NCBI RefSeq assembly: GCF_003345355.1
Contig: NZ_QQNB01000003.1
Location: forward strand, 310,001 to 374,000
Length of the DNA: 64,000 nucleotides
Direction: 5' to 3'
Source: Sphingomonas aracearum
Lineage (GTDB): Bacteria; Pseudomonadota; Alphaproteobacteria; Sphingomonadales; Sphingomonadaceae
Shown: positions 17,959 through 51,287 of the stretch, piece after piece
Layout: each line of letters opens with the position of its first letter
How positions within the stretch are numbered: position 1 is the first letter of the stretch
Notes under the pieces: model-generated
What the model was told of the DNA's origin: nothing
Databases searched by the model: none
Seen by the model: only the letters and a program-made list of their open reading frames with translations
Program-made: the position numbers and the translations under genes

Positions 17959-18053
17959 GGCGGGAGGGCTAACGCGGCGTTCACCCGGCTTGTTGGCAAC
18001 CCGTTCGCCTTTTCGGGCGCTTATGGCCGGTGGACCAAGGGACAAGCCGGGAC

Positions 18054-18386
18054 ATGGACGCAGATCTCGACTATGTGCCGCGCGGGCGGCACCGGCTGAA
18101 GCTGTTCCAGCCGGGCACCGTGCGCGTGTCGCGCGACCTGTTGCGCGTGCATGTGCTCAACATCTCGCTGACCGGGGCGCTGGTGCATCGCGACCAGCCG
18201 CCGCCGCCCGGCACGCTGCTCGACATCCGGATCGGCGGGATGGAACGGCGGGCAAGCGTCGCTTGGGCGAGCGGGGCGCGGTTCGGCATCCAGTTCCAGA
18301 TCCCGCTGACCGAGGGCGAGCTGCACGGCGTGATCGCGCACGAAGCGGCCGACGTGGCCGAGCGGCGGCGCAACCATATCGTCTGA
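18054..18386 (+). CDS. PilZ domain protein
   Basis: This single-domain PilZ protein of 110 residues is a likely cyclic-di-GMP receptor. The two binding motifs are both present: an arginine cluster PRGRHR near residue 8 and NISLTGALV (N-x-S-x-x-G) near residue 40. No effector domain is attached, so it would act by binding a partner. The ATG at 18054 is preferred over a GTG at 18030 because the similarity begins there. It ends 26 bases before the GTA promoter region and is probably not part of that unit. Confidence 0.85.
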   Translation: MDADLDYVPRGRHRLKLFQPGTVRVSRDLLRVHVLNISLTGALVHRDQPPPPGTLLDIRIGGMERRASVAWASGARFGIQFQIPLTEGELHGVIAHEAADVAERRRNHIV

Positions 18387-18390
18387 CGAG

Positions 18391-18406
18391 AACCAGATCG
18401 GTTTTT
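18391..18406. promoter_or_regulatory. Putative operator of the GTA promoter
   Basis: AACCAGATCGGTTTTT lies six bases upstream of the -35 box of the GTA promoter. Its core AACC-n-GATC-n-GGTT is nearly palindromic. The identical 16 bases occur at 50743-50758, directly upstream of an XRE-family regulator gene and in front of a divergent DUF6456 gene. The position, about -56 to -41 from the expected transcription start, suits an activator touching RNA polymerase. Binding is inferred. Confidence 0.7.
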
Positions 18407-18411
18407 AGTGC

Positions 18412-18440
18412 TTGACAGCGTCACGCTGTTTGGGTACATA
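18412..18440 (+). promoter_or_regulatory. Sigma-70-type promoter of the GTA cluster
   Basis: TTGACA at 18412-18417 and TACATA at 18435-18440 are separated by exactly 17 bases. The expected start of RNA is near 18447, giving a leader of about 90 bases before the first gene. The operator-like palindrome lies just upstream, and a terminator hairpin lies within the leader. In a GC-rich genome such a near-consensus pair is unlikely to be accidental. Confidence 0.8.
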
Positions 18441-18469
18441 CCGGGAACAGTCGAGAAATGCGGGAAACG

Positions 18470-18506
18470 AAGGGTCGGGCGCCGGGGGGCGCTTCCGGCC
18501 CTTTTT
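18470..18506 (+). terminator. Intrinsic terminator in the GTA leader
   Basis: AAGGG-T-CGG-GCGCC (18470-18483) pairs through a GGGG loop with GGCGC-TT-CCG-G-CCCTT (18488-18503), with one two-base bulge, and runs into TTTTT (18502-18506). It lies between the promoter and the first gene, so transcription into the cluster should stop here unless RNA polymerase is modified. This is what an antitermination-controlled operon would need. Confidence 0.75.
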
Positions 18507-18538
18507 CGTGTCCGCGGGGCAGAACAGGGGAGGGCGGC

Positions 18539-19075
18539 ATGGCGAAGGTGGTCGCACAGGAACAGGCCGTGGTGGCCGGGGAGATCGCGCAGGTGCGCCG
18601 GGTGCGCGCCGGCGGCGTGACCAAGACGAAGGTGGAGAAGTTCCTGGCCGAGCTGGCGCGCACGTGCAACGTCACGGCCAGTTGCCAGAAGGTGGGGCTG
18701 GGCACGACGGCGATCTATGCGCACCGGCGCAAGTCCCCGGCCTTTGCGAGCGCCTGGGAAGAGGCGATCCGCGAGGGCTATGGCCGGCTGGAGCTGATGC
18801 TGCTGGAAAGCGCGATGGCGAGCTATGAGCCGGCGGAGGAGGGCGACGCCGGATCGGGCGCGGGCACGGGCGCGCGGCCGAAGGTGTCGGAACAGAGCAT
18901 CCTGCGCCTGCTGCAACTGCACCGTCAGCAGGTTGCGGCCCTGCGCGCGGCAGACGGCGCGCGGGCGGAGGCCGGGGCGGAAGCGGCGCACCAGGCGGAA
19001 TGGGGCAGCGCGCGGGCCGAGCTGGAAGCGCGGCTGCTGGCGATGCACGAGCGGCTGGCCGACGATGAGGGTTGA
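18539..19075 (+). CDS. GTA gp1-like protein, probable small terminase subunit
   Basis: This 178-residue protein is the first cistron of the GTA cluster, in the position of RcGTA gene 1, which acts as the small terminase subunit. An N-terminal region reading KVEKFLAELARTCNVTASCQKVGLGTTAIYAHRRKSPAFASAWEEA looks like a helix-turn-helix of the kind used for DNA recognition in packaging. A central Leu-rich helix (SEQSILRLLQLHRQQVAALR) probably oligomerises. The ATG at 18539 follows GGGGAGGG; a frame opening at 18458 runs through the leader terminator and was not used. It overlaps or abuts terL. Confidence 0.82.
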   Translation: MAKVVAQEQAVVAGEIAQVRRVRAGGVTKTKVEKFLAELARTCNVTASCQKVGLGTTAIYAHRRKSPAFASAWEEAIREGYGRLELMLLESAMASYEPAEEGDAGSGAGTGARPKVSEQSILRLLQLHRQQVAALRAADGARAEAGAEAAHQAEWGSARAELEARLLAMHERLADDEG

Positions 19076-19094
19076 GGGCGAGGGGCTGTCCGCC

Positions 19095-20384
19095 ATGGAG
19101 CGGATCGCGCGGCGCGGGCCGGACGCGATCGCCGCCGAGCTGGAGTCGCGCGGCGAGCGGGTGTGCGAGCAGATGCTGTTCCACTGGCGGCTGTGGCGGC
19201 GGCCGGCCCAGTGCCCGCCGCCGGGCGACTGGCGGGTGTGGCTGGTAATGGCGGGGCGCGGCTTCGGCAAGACGCGGGTGGGCGCCGAATGGGTGCGGGC
19301 GGTGGCGGAGAACAACGCCCGCGCCCGCATCGCTCTCGTCGGCGCGACGCAGGACGAAGTGCGGCGGGTGATGGTGGAAGGGGAAAGCGGGCTGCTGGCG
19401 GTGTCGCACCCGGCGCGGCGGCCGCGCTGGGAGCCGTCGCTGGGGCGGCTGACCTGGCCGAGCGGCGCGCAGGCGTTCGCTTTCTCGGCGGACCGGCCGG
19501 AGTCGCTGCGCGGGCCGCAGCACAGCCATGCCTGGTGCGACGAGATCGGCAAATGGCCCAAGGGGGAGGAGGCCTGGGACAATCTGATGCTGAGCCTGCG
19601 CCTGGGCACGCGACCGCGGGCGGTGGCGACGACGACGCCGCGGCCGGTGGCGCTGATCCGCCGGCTGGTGGCGGAGGACGGCGTGGTGCGGACGGGCGGG
19701 CGGACGGCGGCGAACCGCTCCGCGCTGCCGCCCGCGTTCCTGAAGGCGATGACGGAGAATCACGGCGGCACGCGGCTGGGCCGGCAGGAACTGGACGGCG
19801 AGCTGATCGAGGAAGTGGCGGGCGCCTTGTGGAGCCGCGCAGGCCTGGAGCGCAGCCGGCGGCGCGACGGGCCGGCGTTTCGCCGCGTGGTGGTGGGGGT
19901 GGACCCGCCGGCCTCCAGCGGCGGGGATGCATGCGGCATCGTCGCGGTGGCGCTGGGCACGGACGGCGTCGGCTATGTGCTGGAGGATGCATCGGTGGAG
20001 AAGGCGACGCCCGAGGCCTGGGCGGCGGCGGTGGCGGGATGCGCCGCGCGGCACGGGGCGGACCGGGTGGTGGCGGAGGCGAACAATGGCGGCGAGATGG
20101 TGGCCAGCGTGCTGCGCGCGGCGGATGCCAGGCTGCCGGTGAGGCTGGTCCATGCCGCGCGCGGCAAGGTGGCGCGGGCGGAGCCGGTGGCGATGCTGCA
20201 TGCGGCGGGGCGCGTGCTGCTGCTGGGCGTGTTCCCCGCGCTGGAGGACGAGTTGTGCGGGCTGGTGACGGGCGGCGGCTATCAGGGGCCGGGACGCTCG
20301 CCGGACCGCGCCGACGCCATGGTCTGGGCGCTCAGCGAGCTGATGCTGGGCGGACGGGCCGAGGCGCGGGTGCGGGTGGCGTGA
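19095..20384 (+). CDS. GTA terminase large subunit (gp2)
   Basis: This 429-residue packaging motor has an N-terminal ATPase and a C-terminal nuclease. Walker A is GRGFGKT at residues 54-60, and the Walker B-like strand is HAWCDEIGKW. A coupling motif lies in AVATTTPRPV. The RNase H-like nuclease begins RVVVGVDPPASSGGD with later VVAEANNGGEMV and PDRADAMVWALSELM. In the particle assembly line it drives host DNA into proheads. The start at 19095 follows GAGGGG; an ATG at 19065 overlapping the stop of gp1 is possible and adds ten residues. The 3' end overlaps the antisense J-domain gene by 53 bases. Confidence 0.93.
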   Translation: MERIARRGPDAIAAELESRGERVCEQMLFHWRLWRRPAQCPPPGDWRVWLVMAGRGFGKTRVGAEWVRAVAENNARARIALVGATQDEVRRVMVEGESGLLAVSHPARRPRWEPSLGRLTWPSGAQAFAFSADRPESLRGPQHSHAWCDEIGKWPKGEEAWDNLMLSLRLGTRPRAVATTTPRPVALIRRLVAEDGVVRTGGRTAANRSALPPAFLKAMTENHGGTRLGRQELDGELIEEVAGALWSRAGLERSRRRDGPAFRRVVVGVDPPASSGGDACGIVAVALGTDGVGYVLEDASVEKATPEAWAAAVAGCAARHGADRVVAEANNGGEMVASVLRAADARLPVRLVHAARGKVARAEPVAMLHAAGRVLLLGVFPALEDELCGLVTGGGYQGPGRSPDRADAMVWALSELMLGGRAEARVRVA

Positions 20385-27352: not shown

Positions 27353-29575
27353 ATGGGATATTGCCTCGTGGAGGAACGGCGGGCGGAGGGGGTGGTGAGC
27401 CGCTTCGACCCGCGGTTCTGGACGGTGAATTTCCCGCGGCCGATGATGGCGGCGGTGACGACCACGGCGCCGGATGCGCTGCGCGTGGATGCGGTGTTCT
27501 ACCGCGCGGACGATCTGGCCGGGCTGATCTGGGAGGCCGAGGACCGGCACGACCATCCGCTGCTCGCCTATGAGACGGCGCGGGACTTTCGGGAATGCCG
27601 GCTGTCGTTCCGGTGGCGGTCGGGCGGGGTGCGCGCGCTGGATGCGGTGCATGGGCCGGTGCTGACGATCGAGGGGCGCGACGAGGCGGGGCAGCCGCGA
27701 TCCTGGTATGTGCGGCTGTGGAACCATGCGACGGGCGCGCCGGAGGATGCGAAAGTCTCGATCGACTTCGCGGACGTAGCGGGCGGGTTCCTGTTGCCGG
27801 ACGAGGCGGACCCGGTATGGGCGGGCGATGTCGACCGCATGTTCGTGTCGCTGGTGCCGCCGGACTACGACGGCACCGAGCGGCCGCTGGACGCGCCGGC
27901 CGAGGGCTGGGCGGAGCTGTCCGACATCCGCTGCGAGGGGCCGGGGTCCGTGCTGGCGATCGGCGACGCGGTGCTGCCGGAACACAAGCTGGGCATCGCC
28001 AGCGGCTATGACGACAGTTATCACCTGACGCCGGCGCGGCTGCTCAGGAACGCGCTGCACCTGGGCTATCGCGGGCGGCTGATCCACTATCTGGGGATGA
28101 GCCATTATTTCCGGCTCGAGGCGAACAGCGGCGGGTTCTTCGTGAGCCTGGCCGGCGGCGCGCTGAACGTGGCGGCAGCGGCGTGGCAGCGCGACTTTGC
28201 GAGCCGGGCGCGGGCGCTCGGGTTCGAGATCGTCTGGTCCTTGTCCTACGAGCTGCTGGACCAGCATTGCTGGGGCGACTGGAAGCAGCGGGCGGCGGAC
28301 GGGTCGCCGGCGCTGACCGGATGGGTGCCGCCGTCCACCTTGCTGTCGCCGGCGCATGGCGGCGCGATGGCGTATCTGCAGGCGGTGGCGCGCGAGGTAA
28401 TGGGGATCGCGCTGGCGGCGGGGCTCCAGCCGAAGTTCCAGGTCGGCGAGCCGTGGTGGTGGGTGAAGGATGGGAGCCCATGCCTCCACGACGCGGCGGC
28501 CAGGCTGGGCGCGGAGCGGATCGACCTGACCGCGCCGGTTTCGGAACGCGACAAGGCGAGGCTGGATGCGGCGGGGCTGCTGCTGTCGGATTCCACCGCG
28601 GCCTTGTGCGCGGCGGCCCGGCAAGCGGCGCCGGGATGCGAGACGCTGCTGCTGACGTTCCTGCCGACGGTGCTGGACCCGGCGATGCCGGAAGCGCGGC
28701 GGGCGAACCTGCCGGTCGGCTGGGCCGGCGCGTTCGATACGGTGCAGCTGGAGGATTACGACTGGGTGACGGCCGGGAACACGGCCGCGAGCGCGCGCGG
28801 GGCGCCGGTGGCGATGGCGCGGCTGGGCGTGGCGCGGGCGGAATATCTCGCCGGCTTCGTGCTGAATTCCGAGGACAAGGCGCAGTGGCGGGTGATCGAG
28901 GCGGCGGCGCGCGGGTGGCAACGCGGGCGCGCCTATCTGTGGGCGCTGCCGCAGGTGATGCGCGACGGGCTCGTGGTATGGGAGGAGGAGGAAAGCGTGC
29001 AGGATTTCGACGACGTGGCCTTTCCGCTGGCGCTGGGCCGGGAGGCGGAAGTGACGCCGGAGTTCTCCACCGCGATCCAGGCGACGGCGAGCGGGCACGA
29101 GACACGCAATGCGAGCTGGGCCGAGGCGCGCACCCGCTATGACGTGGGGCCGGGCGTCCGGAGCGAGGCGGACATCGCGGCGCTGCTGGCCTTCTTTCGC
29201 GCGCGGATGGGGCCGGCGCGCAGCTTCCGCCTGCGCGATCCGTTCGACTGGCGGGGCGAGCGGGAGCTGCTGGGGATCGGCGACGGCGTGGCGACGCGGT
29301 TCGCGCTGGCCAGAGCTTACGGCGAGGCGACGCGCGCGATCGCGCTGCCGGTGGCGGGCAGCGTGCGGGTGTTCGTGGGCGGTGCGCAGACACAGGCGTT
29401 TTCGGTGGAGAACGGGGCGGTGGCGCTGGACGCGGCACCGGCGGCCGGCGCGGAGGTGCGCGCGAGCTTCGACTTCGACGTGCGGGTGCGCTTTGCCGAG
29501 GACCGGCTTACCGTGAGCCGGGCGAGCTTCCTGGCGGGCGCGGCGCCGTCCGTGCCGCTGGTGGAGGTGCGGTGA
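27353..29575 (+). CDS. GTA distal tail protein (gp12, DUF2460) with a large N-terminal TIM-barrel-like extension
   Basis: This 740-residue protein ends in a DUF2460 domain from about residue 555: FDDVAFPLALGREAEVTPEFST, TRYDVGPGVRSEADIAALLAFFRARMG and FRLRDPFDWRG. RcGTA gp12 consists of essentially this domain alone (about 210 residues). The added N-terminal half contains SGYDDSYHL, LIHYLGMSHYFRL, FEIVWSLSYELLDQHCWGDWK, LQPKFQVGEPWWW and AGAFDTVQLEDYDWV. These resemble strands of a glycosidase-like TIM barrel of the non-contractile tail-sheath type. A fused baseplate/tail-tip enzyme or adhesin is inferred. AAGGAG precedes the ATG. Confidence 0.82.
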   Translation: MGYCLVEERRAEGVVSRFDPRFWTVNFPRPMMAAVTTTAPDALRVDAVFYRADDLAGLIWEAEDRHDHPLLAYETARDFRECRLSFRWRSGGVRALDAVHGPVLTIEGRDEAGQPRSWYVRLWNHATGAPEDAKVSIDFADVAGGFLLPDEADPVWAGDVDRMFVSLVPPDYDGTERPLDAPAEGWAELSDIRCEGPGSVLAIGDAVLPEHKLGIASGYDDSYHLTPARLLRNALHLGYRGRLIHYLGMSHYFRLEANSGGFFVSLAGGALNVAAAAWQRDFASRARALGFEIVWSLSYELLDQHCWGDWKQRAADGSPALTGWVPPSTLLSPAHGGAMAYLQAVAREVMGIALAAGLQPKFQVGEPWWWVKDGSPCLHDAAARLGAERIDLTAPVSERDKARLDAAGLLLSDSTAALCAAARQAAPGCETLLLTFLPTVLDPAMPEARRANLPVGWAGAFDTVQLEDYDWVTAGNTAASARGAPVAMARLGVARAEYLAGFVLNSEDKAQWRVIEAAARGWQRGRAYLWALPQVMRDGLVVWEEEESVQDFDDVAFPLALGREAEVTPEFSTAIQATASGHETRNASWAEARTRYDVGPGVRSEADIAALLAFFRARMGPARSFRLRDPFDWRGERELLGIGDGVATRFALARAYGEATRAIALPVAGSVRVFVGGAQTQAFSVENGAVALDAAPAAGAEVRASFDFDVRVRFAEDRLTVSRASFLAGAAPSVPLVEVR

Positions 29576-30381
29576 TGGCGCTGTTCACGACCGCCCTGTG
29601 CTGGCGGATCGCGCGGGGCGATGGCGTGACGATCGGGCTGACCAGCCACGATCGCGACCTGGAGGTGGGCGGACTTCTGTACCGCGCGAGCCCGGGCATG
29701 ACGCCCTCGGCGGTGAAGCGCTCGGACGGGCTGGAGGCGGACACAATGGACGTGTCCGGCGCGCTGTCGAGCGCGGCGATCGGCGAGGCGGACCTGCTGG
29801 CGGGGCGCTGGGACGGAGCGAGGGTGACGCTGTTCGCGGTCGATTGGACGGGCGGCGATCCAGTGGAGATGGGGCCGGTGGAGATCGGCTGCGGATCGAT
29901 CGGCGCGGTGGAAACGCGCGGCGGCGCGTTCAGCGCGGAGCTGCGCGGGGCGGCGGCGGCGTTCGAGGCGGCGGTGGCGGAAGCGACGTCGGCCGGGTGC
30001 CGGGCGGAACTGGGCGACAGGAGGTGCCGCGTGGCGATGGCCGGGCGGCGGATGATGGCGCGGGTGGTGGGGAGCGAGGGCGAGCTGCTGACGCTGGACC
30101 GGGCCGAGCCGGTGGCGGGCGGCTGGGGCGGCGGGCGGCTGCGCTGGTTCGGCGGGGCGAACAGCGGGCTGGCGGGGTGGATCGCAGGCTCGGTGGGCGC
30201 CCGCGTGACGCTGCGATCGGCGCCGGTGCTGCCGGTGGCGGCGGGCGATCTGGTGGAGGTGAGCGAGGGATGCGACAAGCGGCTGGAAACGTGCGCGGGG
30301 CGCTTTGCCAACGTGGCGAACTTTCGCGGGGAGCCGTTCCTGCCGGGAATGGACCTGCTGACCCGCTATCCAGGGGGGTGA
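29575..30381 (+). CDS. GTA gp13 hub protein (DUF2163 / BR0599 family)
   Basis: This 268-residue protein shows the family beginning TALCWRIARGDGVTIGLTSHDRDLEVGGLLYRA and the C-terminal domain with EGCDKRLETCAGRFANVANFRGEPFLPGMDLLTRYPGG, including its conserved cysteines (C-x-D-x-x-x-x-x-C). In RcGTA gp13 is part of the tail-tip hub between gp12 and gp15. The ATG at 29575 overlaps the gp12 stop by one base (TGATG). Confidence 0.93.
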   Translation: MALFTTALCWRIARGDGVTIGLTSHDRDLEVGGLLYRASPGMTPSAVKRSDGLEADTMDVSGALSSAAIGEADLLAGRWDGARVTLFAVDWTGGDPVEMGPVEIGCGSIGAVETRGGAFSAELRGAAAAFEAAVAEATSAGCRAELGDRRCRVAMAGRRMMARVVGSEGELLTLDRAEPVAGGWGGGRLRWFGGANSGLAGWIAGSVGARVTLRSAPVLPVAAGDLVEVSEGCDKRLETCAGRFANVANFRGEPFLPGMDLLTRYPGG

Positions 30382-30773
30382 CCGCGCCCGGGCGCGGGGC
30401 CTGGCGGGTGATCGCGCGGGCGCGGGGCGCGATCGGCGCGCGGTTCCGCCTGCACGGGCGCGATCCGGAGCAGGGGCTGGACTGCGTGGGGCTGGCGGGC
30501 TGGGCGCTGGAGATCGGCAGCCTGCCGACCGGCTATGGGTTGCGCGGGGGAACGCGGGAAAGCGTGGAGGAGCGGTTGCGCGCGGCGGAACTGGGCGCGG
30601 TGGCGGAGCTGCGCGGGGGCGACCTGGTGCTGGCGGCGGCGGGGCCGGGGCAATGGCACCTGGCGATCGCCGTGCCGGGGGGCTGGGTGCATGCCGATGC
30701 GGGCTTGCGGTGCGTGGTGGAGCGGCCGGGCGCGGCGCCGTGGCCGGTGGTCTCGATCTGGCGGAGGGAATGA
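30378..30773 (+). CDS. GTA gp14 NlpC/P60-type peptidase
   Basis: This 131-residue cell-wall peptidase is carried at the tail tip. Catalytic Cys is at residue 36 in EQGLDCVGLAGWAL, and the His is in QWHLAIAVPGGWVHAD near residue 95. The fold matches NlpC/P60 papain-like endopeptidases that cut peptidoglycan stems, helping DNA through the recipient envelope. The GTG start at 30378 overlaps the upstream stop as GTGA, and its own stop overlaps gp15. Confidence 0.88.
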   Translation: MTAPGRGAWRVIARARGAIGARFRLHGRDPEQGLDCVGLAGWALEIGSLPTGYGLRGGTRESVEERLRAAELGAVAELRGGDLVLAAAGPGQWHLAIAVPGGWVHADAGLRCVVERPGAAPWPVVSIWRRE

Positions 30774-32926
30774 TGGCGACTTTGGTGCTTTCGGCCGTGG
30801 GCACGGCGATCGGCGGGCCGATCGGCGGCGCGCTGGGCGCGCTGCTGGGGCAGGGGGTGGACCGCGAGGTGCTGCGCCCGCCGGGCCGGCAAGGTCCGCG
30901 GCTGACGACCCTGGCGGTGCAGACCTCCACCTATGGCACGCCGATCCCCAGGCTGTTCGGGCGGATGCGCGTGGCGGGCAGCGTGATCTGGGCGACCGAC
31001 CTGATCGAGAGCCATGCGACGAGCCGGGCGGGCAAGGGGCAGCCGAGCGTCACCACCTACAGCTATTCCGCCTCGTTCGCCGTCGCCCTGTCGGCGCGGG
31101 CGATCCGGCGGGTGGGCCGGATCTGGGCGGACGGCTCGCTGCTGCGCGGGGCGGCGGGCGACCTGAAGGTGGCGGGCACCTTGCGGGTGCATCCGGGCGG
31201 CGAGGACCAGGCGGCGGACCCGCTGATCGCGTCGGCGGAAGGATCGATGGCGCCGGCGCACCGGGGGATCGCCTATGCCGTGTTCGAGAACCTTGAACTG
31301 GCGGAATTCGGCAACCGGCTGCCCTCGCTGACCTTCGAGGTGTTTGCCGACGAGGCTCCGGTGAGCGCGGGGTTCATCGCCGCCGAGCTCACGCAGGGGC
31401 GCGTGGCGGCGCGCGGAGGCACGATGCTGGACGGGTTCGCGGCCTATGGCGATTCCGCGCGCGGCGTGCTGGAAACGCTGGCGGAGGGCGGCGGCTGGTT
31501 CGCGCCGGCGGGTGACGGCTTCGTGCTGGCGCAGGACGAGGCGCCGGTCGCGACGCTGGCCGATGCGGGGCATGCGGCGGAAGGCGAGCGCGGCGCACGC
31601 GGGGCGCGGACGCTGGCGGCGGCGGAAACAGTGCCGCGGCGAGTGACGCTGGCCCATTACGACCCGGCGCGCGACTATCAGACCGGCGTCCAGTCCGCCT
31701 CGCGGCCCGGCGCCGGCGCGCGGGAGAAGCGGGCGGAGCTGCCGGCGGCGGTGGCGGCGGACACCGCGCGGGCGCTGGCCGAGCGGCGGCTGGCGGCGGC
31801 GGAGGCGGCGCGGGAGCGGCGGATGGTGACGGCGGGGCTGGACCGGCTGGCGCTGGCGCCGGGCGCGGTGGTCTCGATCGCCGGCGCGGGCGGGCGCTGG
31901 CGGGTGACGGGCTGGTCGCTGGAGAACATGGTGCTGTCGCTGAACTGCCTGCGGCTGCCCGGAGGACCGGGGCCGGTGCCGCGGGCGAGCCCCGGACGGG
32001 TGCTGGCCGCCGCCGACCGCCATGCGGGGCAGACGGTGCTGCAGGCGGTCGAGCTGCCGCCGCTGGGCGACGAGGCGCTGGCCGGGCCGATGCTGGCCGT
32101 GCTGGCGGCGGGGACGGGCGCGGGCTGGCGCCGGGCGGCCCTGCTCTACAGCCTGGACGGCGGCGCGCGCTGGATCGAGGCGGGAGGAACCGCGGCGCCG
32201 GCCGTGCTGGGGACAGTGACGGTGCCGCCGGGCGTTGCCTCCGCGCGGCTGGAGGACCGCCGCTCGATGCTGGAGGTCGAGCTGGCGGAAGCGGGCATGG
32301 CGCTGGCCGATGCCGATGCGGGCGGGCTGATGTCGGGCGCGAACCTGGCGCTGGTTGGCGAGGAGCTGCTGCAGTTCGGGCGTGCGGAGCGGATCGGCAC
32401 GCGACGTTGGCGGCTGACGCGATTGTGGCGCGGGCGCCGTGGCACGGAGGCGGCGATCGGCGGGCAGGGCGCGGGCGCGCGCTTTGCGCTGCTCTCGGCC
32501 GACAGCGTGGCGACGATCGCCCTGCCGGCCAGCGCGATCGGCGGCACCGTGCAGGTGATGGCGAGCGGCGTCGGCGATGCGGAGCCGGCGATGGTGACCG
32601 TGGCGGTGACGGGAGCGTCCGTGCTGCCGCCGCCGCCCGTCGCCTTGCGGCGCGACGGCGAGGTGCTGCGCTGGACGCGGCGGAGCCGGACCGGATGGCG
32701 CTGGATCGATGGCGCGGACGCGCCGCTGGGCGAAGAGGCGGAACGCTACCACGTCACGCTGGCCACGGCCGGCGGCGCGGTGCTGCGCGAGGAGAGCGTC
32801 GGGACACCGGCGGTGGTGCTGGCGCCGGCGGAGCGGGGCGGCGACGTGCAGGTGACGGTGCGGCAGATCGGCACGTTCGGCCTTTCCGGCCCGGCGCGGA
32901 TCGAGGGAGTGAGGAGAGAAGCATGA
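30773..32926 (+). CDS. GTA gp15-like tail tip/host-interaction protein (short form)
   Basis: This protein of about 717 residues begins with a hydrophobic Gly-rich segment (TLVLSAVGTAIGGPIGGALGALLGQGVDREVL). It continues RLTTLAVQTSTYGTPIPRLFGRMRVAGSVIWATDLIES and SVTTYSYSASFAVALS, the phage tip-attachment pattern found in gp15. RcGTA gp15 is far longer (about 1300 residues) and has a TIM-barrel-like GTA_TIM domain that I do not see here. The C-terminal half has small beta domains. Two adjacent ATGs, 30770 and 30773, overlap the gp14 stop. Confidence 0.87.
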   Translation: MATLVLSAVGTAIGGPIGGALGALLGQGVDREVLRPPGRQGPRLTTLAVQTSTYGTPIPRLFGRMRVAGSVIWATDLIESHATSRAGKGQPSVTTYSYSASFAVALSARAIRRVGRIWADGSLLRGAAGDLKVAGTLRVHPGGEDQAADPLIASAEGSMAPAHRGIAYAVFENLELAEFGNRLPSLTFEVFADEAPVSAGFIAAELTQGRVAARGGTMLDGFAAYGDSARGVLETLAEGGGWFAPAGDGFVLAQDEAPVATLADAGHAAEGERGARGARTLAAAETVPRRVTLAHYDPARDYQTGVQSASRPGAGAREKRAELPAAVAADTARALAERRLAAAEAARERRMVTAGLDRLALAPGAVVSIAGAGGRWRVTGWSLENMVLSLNCLRLPGGPGPVPRASPGRVLAAADRHAGQTVLQAVELPPLGDEALAGPMLAVLAAGTGAGWRRAALLYSLDGGARWIEAGGTAAPAVLGTVTVPPGVASARLEDRRSMLEVELAEAGMALADADAGGLMSGANLALVGEELLQFGRAERIGTRRWRLTRLWRGRRGTEAAIGGQGAGARFALLSADSVATIALPASAIGGTVQVMASGVGDAEPAMVTVAVTGASVLPPPPVALRRDGEVLRWTRRSRTGWRWIDGADAPLGEEAERYHVTLATAGGAVLREESVGTPAVVLAPAERGGDVQVTVRQIGTFGLSGPARIEGVRREA

Positions 32927-50163: not shown

Positions 50164-50727
50164 TCAGAATTCGCGGACGAGGCGCAGCGCCTGGGCGAGC
50201 CAGGGCGCTGCCGGCACCGACACCGGCCGCGCGCCGGCGGCGGGGGAGAGGACGGTGAGCGCTCCGTTGTCCACGGAGAGCAGGCGGCCGAAGAGGAAGC
50301 GGCCGGCCGGCTGCGGCACCAGCACGTCGCGGTGCAGCGCCTGCGCAAAGGCATCGGGCGACAGCCGTTCGCACCAGATCTGGTCGCCGGAGCGATAGTC
50401 GCCGATCCCGGCCGCCACCGTGATCGCGACCAGGCCGGGGGTGATCGGCGGCGGGGCGAGCACGGCAGCGCGCTTGGGCGCATGGGCGCCATCGACGCCG
50501 AGGATCGCAGCGACCGGCAGGTCCGCGCGATCCGGCAGCGAGACGAGATCGGCGGCGGTGACGCCGAGCGCGGCGGCGATGCGGTTCAGCCAGCCGACCG
50601 ACACGGTGCGCGTGCCGGTTTCGAGGCGGCCGATGGTCTGCGCCGTGGTGGGGGGAACGCAGGCCTTGGCGACCTCTTCCAGCGTCATGCCCTTGGCGCG
50701 CCGGACTTCGCGAATGGCAGTGATCAT
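50164..50727 (-). CDS. XRE-family transcriptional regulator, candidate GTA regulator
   Basis: This 187-residue protein has an N-terminal lambda-repressor-like helix-turn-helix (IREVRRAKGMTLEEVAKACVPPTTAQTIGRLETGTRTVSVGWLNRIAAALGV). A C-terminal beta-rich domain (YRSGDQIWCERLSPDAFAQALHRDVLVPQPAGRFLFGRLLSVDNGALTVLSP) resembles the S24/LexA fold but has no visible Ser-Lys dyad. The sequence AACCAGATCGGTTTTT stands 15 bases upstream of its ATG and again at the GTA promoter. It is divergent from a DUF6456 gene. It could be a repressor like Caulobacter RogA or an activator like GafY; sequence alone does not decide. Confidence 0.8.
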   Translation of the reverse strand: MITAIREVRRAKGMTLEEVAKACVPPTTAQTIGRLETGTRTVSVGWLNRIAAALGVTAADLVSLPDRADLPVAAILGVDGAHAPKRAAVLAPPPITPGLVAITVAAGIGDYRSGDQIWCERLSPDAFAQALHRDVLVPQPAGRFLFGRLLSVDNGALTVLSPAAGARPVSVPAAPWLAQALRLVREF

Positions 50728-50742
50728 TTCCAACAAAATCCT

Positions 50743-50758
50743 AACCAGATCGGTTTTT
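50743..50758. promoter_or_regulatory. Putative operator between the XRE regulator and the DUF6456 gene
   Basis: AACCAGATCGGTTTTT is identical over 16 bases to 18391-18406 at the GTA promoter. Here it lies next to the XRE gene's ribosome site (AGGA at 50739-50742 read on the minus strand) and about 60 bases before the DUF6456 start. A bound protein could block XRE expression and act on the divergent promoter. No strong sigma-70 promoter is evident for the DUF6456 gene, which suggests it needs activation. Confidence 0.7.
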
Positions 50759-50819
50759 CGCTTTCCTACATCGGGGGCGCCGTGACAAGAGGCTAATTGC
50801 GAACACAAGGGGAACGACA

Positions 50820-51287
50820 ATGCGCGAGCTGGCGGAACGGAGCCTGGACGAGTTCGGCGTGGTGCCGGAAGGCGGGCGAACGCGCGCGAACGCCCGGCGG
50901 GTAACGGTGAACGTCGCCGAGTCGCCGCTCGGCTGGCTGAAGGCGCGCGGGATGGTGGACGATCGCCAGTTCGAGGCGGGCGAGCGGCTGCGCGCGGATT
51001 ACGAGCGGGCGGCGCTGGGCCCGCGGGTGACCATGCGGTGGACGGCGCGGGTGGACGGCGCGGGCGCGGGGCTCGATCCGGCGGAAGCGCAGCTGGCGGC
51101 CAAGCGGCGCTTCGATGCGGCGGTGACGGCGGCGGGACCGGGCCTCAGCGACGTGCTGTGGCGGGTGGTGTGCGCGGGCGAAGGGCTGCCGGCGGCGGAG
51201 CGCGCGCTCGGCTGGCCGGCGCGGGCGGGGCGGCTGGTGCTGGGCCTGGCGCTCGACCGGGTGGCCGACCATTACCGGCTGGCGTGA
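50820..51287 (+). CDS. DUF6456 protein, candidate GafZ-like GTA activator/antiterminator
   Basis: This 155-residue protein consists of a DUF6456 domain: VTVNVAESPLGWLKARGMVDDRQFEAGERLRADYERAALGPRVTMRW, then AQLAAKRRFDAAVTAAGPGLSDVLWRVVCAGEGLPAAERALGWPARAGRLVLGLALDRVADHY. DUF6456 forms the C-terminal half of GafA, the direct GTA activator of Rhodobacter, and the whole of Caulobacter GafZ, which acts in antitermination. As in Caulobacter, the helix-turn-helix part is encoded separately, here possibly by the divergent XRE gene. AAGGGGAA precedes the ATG. Role in GTA control is inferred from family and from the shared operator. Confidence 0.85.
   Translation: MRELAERSLDEFGVVPEGGRTRANARRVTVNVAESPLGWLKARGMVDDRQFEAGERLRADYERAALGPRVTMRWTARVDGAGAGLDPAEAQLAAKRRFDAAVTAAGPGLSDVLWRVVCAGEGLPAAERALGWPARAGRLVLGLALDRVADHYRLA

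Follow-up and report, generated by a model that had tools for sequence, protein, structure and literature searches.

Gene transfer agents (GTAs) are widespread in alphaproteobacteria, with their control worked out in few model species only. In Caulobacter crescentus, GafY and IHF activate the GTA genes, and GafZ works as an antiterminator at a palindrome located between the -35 and -10 elements; the Caulobacter GTA (CcGTA) requires GafY and IHF at a degenerate -35, whereas with a consensus -35 the activator is no longer required. Enrichment of the repressor RogA is limited to gafYZ and CCNA_02002, with repeats of the form GGAA-N4-TTCC (PMC9632790, PMC11150451). GafZ was reported to have no similarity to known antiterminators (PMC11150451). 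The XRE proteins RtrA, RtrB, CdxA, CdxB and TgrL also repress gafYZ in Caulobacter; in the accessible part of that report they act at gafYZ, and direct action on the GTA cluster promoter is not described (PMC10688885). Homologues of gafA are already known in Sphingomonadales, the order in which codon-usage selection on GTA genes is strongest (PMC9765227). Here we analyse a 64,000-nucleotide stretch of Sphingomonas aracearum (contig NZ_QQNB01000003.1, positions 310,001 to 374,000; hereafter the window) containing a GTA cluster and, 32 kb from the cluster start, an XRE regulator gene divergent from a DUF6456 gene (gafZ). A short site is shared by the two loci, and most likely one phage-type repressor reads it at both the activator gene and the GTA promoter.

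Two exact copies of AACCAGATCGGTTTTT are present in the window, at 18391-18406 and 50743-50758 on the + strand, in agreement with the original prediction of a 16-mer identical at both loci. The first copy stands directly upstream of a promoter of the form that had been proposed, TTGACA-N17-TACATA (18412-18440), and the second indeed lies between the XRE gene (50727-50164) and the divergent DUF6456 gene (50820-51287). The elements of the two loci are as follows.

18391..18403, + strand: operator AACCAGATCGGTT (AACC-N5-GGTT) at the main GTA promoter, centred at about -50; from sequence, genome scan and conservation
18412..18417, + strand: consensus -35 (TTGACA) of the GTA promoter; kept in genomes with and without XRE
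18417..18427, + strand: palindrome AGCGTCACGCT in the spacer that separates -35 from -10, where GafZ (DUF6456) may load; kept in 12/12 genomes with GafZ and no XRE, lost in 3/3 without GafZ; compare the GafZ-binding element (ZBE) of PMC11150451
18435..18440, + strand: -10 (TACATA) of the GTA promoter, N17 after the -35; from sequence and conservation
50164..50727, - strand: candidate XRE repressor gene, N-terminal XRE helix-turn-helix (HTH) and C-terminal LexA/S24-like domain; from profile match and predicted structure
50743..50755, + strand: second operator copy, in the XRE/gafZ intergenic region; from sequence and conservation
50767..50772, + strand: TACATC, taken as the probable -10 of gafZ (TnTCCTACA being the conserved form); from sequence and conservation
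50820..51287, + strand: gafZ (DUF6456), 155 amino acids, candidate antiterminator; PF20057, E=1e-40

A PilZ-domain gene (18030-18386) on the same strand stops 4 nt ahead of the GTA operator.

When the window was scanned at up to three mismatches, only the two AACCAGATCGGTTTTT sites were returned; dinucleotide-shuffled windows averaged 0.06 matches at this threshold and never reached two, bearing out the claim that the double occurrence is not due to chance. Across the 3.64-Mb genome there were zero additional sites at 0-2 mismatches and nine, scattered, at three, which excludes a dispersed repeat. The pattern AACCNNATNGGTT occurs three times in the genome versus zero for the reversed pattern. 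Its third site, AACCGGATTGGTT (G000:C6:1149981; L324:1501-1513), lies between genes resembling those for a transporter and for a small lipoprotein, and is possibly a chance match. In relatives the conserved unit is a 13-bp pseudo-palindrome, AACC-N5-GGTT, in which the five central bases are variable, as is the T-tract; the nearly palindromic site that had been proposed is real, but its full 16 bp is not the unit. Because the two copies within one genome mostly differ in N5 among relatives, the 16-bp identity seen here is partly incidental and overstates the constraint.

A search of related genomes found the operator conserved at both loci, excluding the alternative that it is not. It lies between the XRE gene and gafZ in nearly all same-genus genomes that have the XRE gene, and in 75 of 80 XRE/DUF6456 intergenic regions from a set of named genomes, nearly all Sphingomonas and overlapping in part with the same-genus set. 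About 12 nt past the operator at the gafZ locus, the same-genus genomes with XRE share a conserved TnTCCTACA. GTA loci in relatives were located with the large terminase as probe (present in 97 of 120), and upstream of it a conserved promoter was found, CTTGACA-n-CGTcACGCTg-TTTGGgTACAtAACaGGAAC. Among XRE-bearing genomes the operator is present at 42 of 45 GTA promoters, its right half often weaker, and starts 19-21 nt ahead of the TTGACA; in the named set it is present at 14 of 15, the fifteenth carrying CACCTATCTGGT. In other families of the order, the XRE gene, a longer DUF6456 gene (~260 amino acids) and the small and large terminase genes are contiguous, and several of these loci have two AACC-N5-GGTT-like sites, 24 bp apart, flanking a TATAAC -10 between XRE and gafZ, with a further such site immediately upstream of the TTGACA of the GTA promoter. 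More distant alphaproteobacteria have an XRE gene divergent from a GafY-GafZ pair. The separation of the regulator pair from the cluster start by 32 kb in S. aracearum looks like a split of an originally contiguous unit.

Natural gene losses separate the two DNA elements. Sixteen same-genus genomes have no XRE match, and 15 of them retain a clear DUF6456 gene. Where the GTA promoter could be read in XRE-less genomes, its core was intact and the operator was present in 0 of 12 (Fisher p=6e-10 for operator versus XRE presence, uncorrected for phylogeny); at the 15 gafZ loci of such genomes the operator is gone and TGTCCTACA is retained. Information content agrees: the operator block is informative in genomes with XRE (n=38) and carries none in those without (n=11), with the promoter core kept in both. 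Conversely, three genomes (G052, G065 and G068) have XRE and no DUF6456 gene that we could find, and their GTA promoters retain the operator and have lost the spacer palindrome AGCGTnACGCT, whose presence tracks the gafZ gene. The genomes thus fall into three classes: both elements in 35/41 with XRE and GafZ, the spacer palindrome only in 12/12 with GafZ and no XRE, and the operator only in 3/3 with XRE and no GafZ. By this reciprocal co-loss of elements and genes, the operator belongs with XRE and the spacer palindrome with GafZ. Comparative genomics thereby supports the prediction of a single regulator acting on its own locus and on the GTA cluster, with the operator at both loci, lost along with XRE and kept without DUF6456.

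Four loci (L062, L063, L065 and L066, from G052, G065, G068 and G025) have XRE without an adjacent DUF6456 gene and without an operator at their own locus; some have a dapF-like gene next to XRE, and three of the four retain the operator at the GTA promoter. Five loci from f8 family genomes that have neither XRE nor DUF6456 (L319-L323) show a TCCTATnnATAGGA-like inverted repeat directly upstream of a TTGACA promoter before the terminase, ~555-755 nt from the end of each oriented locus. Their promoter spacer, AAnnGGGGTTAATAG, is different and conserved; the repeat is perhaps the target of another regulator at the same position.

The predicted structure of the XRE protein (predicted local distance difference test score, pLDDT, 87.5) matches HTH proteins at Z 10-11.7, including P22 c2 and SinR, and its residues 57-187 match the LexA C-domain 6a2t (Z 9.5, root-mean-square deviation 2.9, 91 residues). 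The HTH is near-invariant among the homologues aligned (TT[AP]QTIGRLE), which fits with an operator conserved across the order. By eye, the alignment shows no lysine on the strand where the catalytic one would be expected (GRFLFGRL), and self-cleavage therefore seems unlikely. In the GafZ model, the C-terminal half resembles sigma region 4 (best Z 8.3, alignments of ~66-73 residues), a score close to noise; the phage 21 antiterminator Q21 (6p1c) matches at Z 6.2 over 90 residues, a weak score near common-fold level. Searches of PDB sequences with XRE and GafZ returned nothing useful. GafZ has 155 amino acids in Sphingomonas; in other families of the order it reaches ~260 and carries an additional domain at the N-terminus. 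GafY, sought with Bac_DnaA_C and, in 110 relatives, with a GafY profile from other orders, was not recovered, the matches being essentially only DnaA.

If the TACA hexamer is taken as the -10 of gafZ, the operator spans about -37 to -25 and covers the -35 region. Upstream of gafZ, at 50759-50790 and at the corresponding place in relatives, TnTCCTACA and after it TGGCAAG/TGCCA persist even without XRE and the operator, and no -35 is visible there.

Downstream of the GTA promoter, the features run as listed.

18469..18507, + strand: leader hairpin followed by TTTTT, resembling an intrinsic terminator, between the promoter and the first GTA gene; GC-rich, conserved with compensatory changes
18541..18828, + strand: first GTA gene, 95 amino acids, in the small-terminase position; precedes the large terminase, no family match
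18825..20384, + strand: GTA large terminase; PF03237, PF17289
23221..24324, + strand: HK97-type major capsid gene; profile match
29572..32926, + strand: GTA baseplate hub (29572-30381) and GTA megatron (30653-32926); profile matches

The cluster from 18541 is thus of GTA type, with terminase, HK97 capsid, Rcc01695-family distal tail, baseplate hub and megatron genes. Two profiles for tail/baseplate proteins of the Rhodobacter GTA type, TIGR02217 (Rcc01695 family) and TIGR02218, score above their cut-offs, and the GTA_megatron profile scores 392 bits, below its cut-off of 800. A homologue of the 95-amino-acid gene was detected only in its own genome and in none of the 120 relatives, although the adjacent large terminase is widespread. 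The leader hairpin is terminator-like. The 99-nt leader of this window alone has a folding energy ordinary for its composition (ViennaRNA z-score -0.52). The leaders of 44 of 50 relatives form a hairpin that falls below -12 kcal/mol and is followed by a tail with T in it, a criterion that 40% of shuffles also pass; the mean best hairpin free energy is -26 kcal/mol in relatives versus -9 in shuffles. Hairpin-anchored pair counts across relatives gave C-G, G-C and A-T at the outer pairs. MAFFT/RNAalifold analysis of the leaders returned no consensus structure because hairpin lengths vary.

On sequence grounds we infer a system that resembles Caulobacter RogA-GafYZ but places the repressor on the GTA promoter too, uses another operator and operates without a detected GafY. 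RogA is LexA/CI-like without cleavage residues; the XRE protein here is predicted to be LexA/CI-like too, and may lack such residues. Each system has a DUF6456 protein, GafZ, an antiterminator in Caulobacter and a candidate antiterminator here, a palindrome between the -35 and -10 of the GTA promoter, and a repressor site, predicted in our case, at the activator gene's promoter. In contrast, the operator here is AACC-N5-GGTT and also lies on the GTA promoter, whereas Caulobacter chromatin immunoprecipitation sequencing (ChIP-seq) did not place RogA at the main GTA promoter; the -35 here is consensus, and the repressor gene and gafZ are transcribed divergently. Lambda CI and LexA repressors are likewise XRE HTH proteins with an S24/LexA-like fold whose operators lie at their own and at a lytic or late promoter, but the target here is the late promoter of a domesticated GTA. 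The promoter also recalls those used by lambda Q, phage 21 Q and AlpA (PR' with the Q-binding element, QBE, and tR'), with a recognition element between -35 and -10, a consensus -35 and, a short way downstream, a hairpin resembling a terminator. The GafZ fold list includes Q21 as a weak match, but we found no sequence relation between GafZ and Q, and sigma region 4 is the closer likeness for its C-terminal half (Z ~8). A literature search found no description of this XRE repressor or of the AACC-N5-GGTT operator, with most subscription papers and preprints outside its scope.

From the sites, the genes, their conservation and their co-loss we infer binding and repression by XRE, loading of GafZ and antitermination at the leader. 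We consider it likely that XRE is a LexA/CI-like repressor of both the gafZ/own and the GTA promoters, and that GafZ loads at the spacer palindrome and antiterminates through the leader. The XRE protein would bind the repeated site as its operator, repressing its own and the gafZ intergenic promoters through a site lying over the presumed -35, and also directly repressing the main GTA promoter through a site that abuts the consensus -35, where a dimer centred near -50 could hinder RNA polymerase or its alpha C-terminal domains. Once repression is lifted, polymerase would start at the GTA promoter, and GafZ, loading at AGCGTnACGCT in the manner of lambda Q, would carry it past the leader hairpin and through the ~15-kb cluster. 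The original prediction named neither repression nor activation; repression is the better-supported sign for the XRE protein: an operator over the presumed gafZ -35 and doubled operators around the -10 in other families are repressor layouts, and the consensus -35 kept without an operator in XRE-less lineages counts against XRE as a required activator. Because a consensus -35 makes the activator dispensable in Caulobacter, a GafY-free consensus promoter would need some other brake, which the repressor and the leader hairpin with GafZ antitermination could supply.

Several observations weigh against this scheme. The GTA operator lies upstream of the -35 at a near-fixed distance (19-22 nt), which would also suit a polymerase-contacting protein. 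Many relatives have U-poor tails after the leader hairpin, leaving strong intrinsic termination uncertain. On a tree of gafZ sequences extracted by tblastn, the XRE label needs ~3 changes (1-3 with support); this tree is weak, and independent XRE losses are few. The three genomes without GafZ may represent a single lineage.

The first point bears on the alternative that survives best, namely that XRE is a repressor at gafZ and an activator, or a licensing factor, at the GTA promoter, touching sigma or alpha in the fashion of lambda CI at OR2/PRM. The near-constant position upstream of the -35, in Sphingomonas and other families alike, would suit such a role. Lambda CI at OR2 is centred at -42, however, and a centre near -50 would place the protein on another face of the helix; moreover, XRE-less lineages retain the consensus -35 promoter without the site, as expected after loss of a repressor. 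We regard this alternative as unlikely. A third factor common to both promoters, with co-loss of XRE and the site a coincidence of lineage, gains some room from the small number of XRE losses (1-3), but throughout the order the promoter of the XRE gene itself carries the site, in two copies in other families, and the site tracks the presence of XRE rather than of GafZ or the GTA, making this explanation very improbable. Slightly less credible again is that the operator belongs to GafZ. Its presence at both the gafZ and GTA promoters would fit, but it is missing from 12 GTA promoters and 15 gafZ loci of genomes with GafZ and no XRE, and is kept at three XRE-bearing GTA promoters without GafZ; in addition, the one location of GafZ in Caulobacter is the GTA promoter, where it occupies the site in the -35/-10 spacer (PMC11150451). 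Chance or a dispersed repeat has nothing beyond the small size of the motif in its favour and is a negligible prospect, already refuted by conservation at both loci and also opposed by the shuffles, the genome scan and the reversed pattern.

With XRE as a repressor at both loci, a double lock, different from the control in Caulobacter, appears to keep the GTA particle genes silent. A broader proposal, for which we see the chances as about even, is that Sphingomonadales have a GafY-free GTA switch of phage late-promoter design, in which a repressor holds both the consensus GTA promoter and the antiterminator gene as a double lock, and polymerase, once released, meets a leader terminator passable only with a spacer-loaded DUF6456 protein, and that some Sphingomonas lineages dropped the repressor and rely on antitermination alone. 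For the control of GTAs in Sphingomonadales, the analysis offers a concrete operator, a regulator and a candidate antitermination element, and the natural loss series predicts which strains should be repressed. GTA induction in Sphingomonas thereby becomes testable by the deletion of one gene or the mutation of two short sites.
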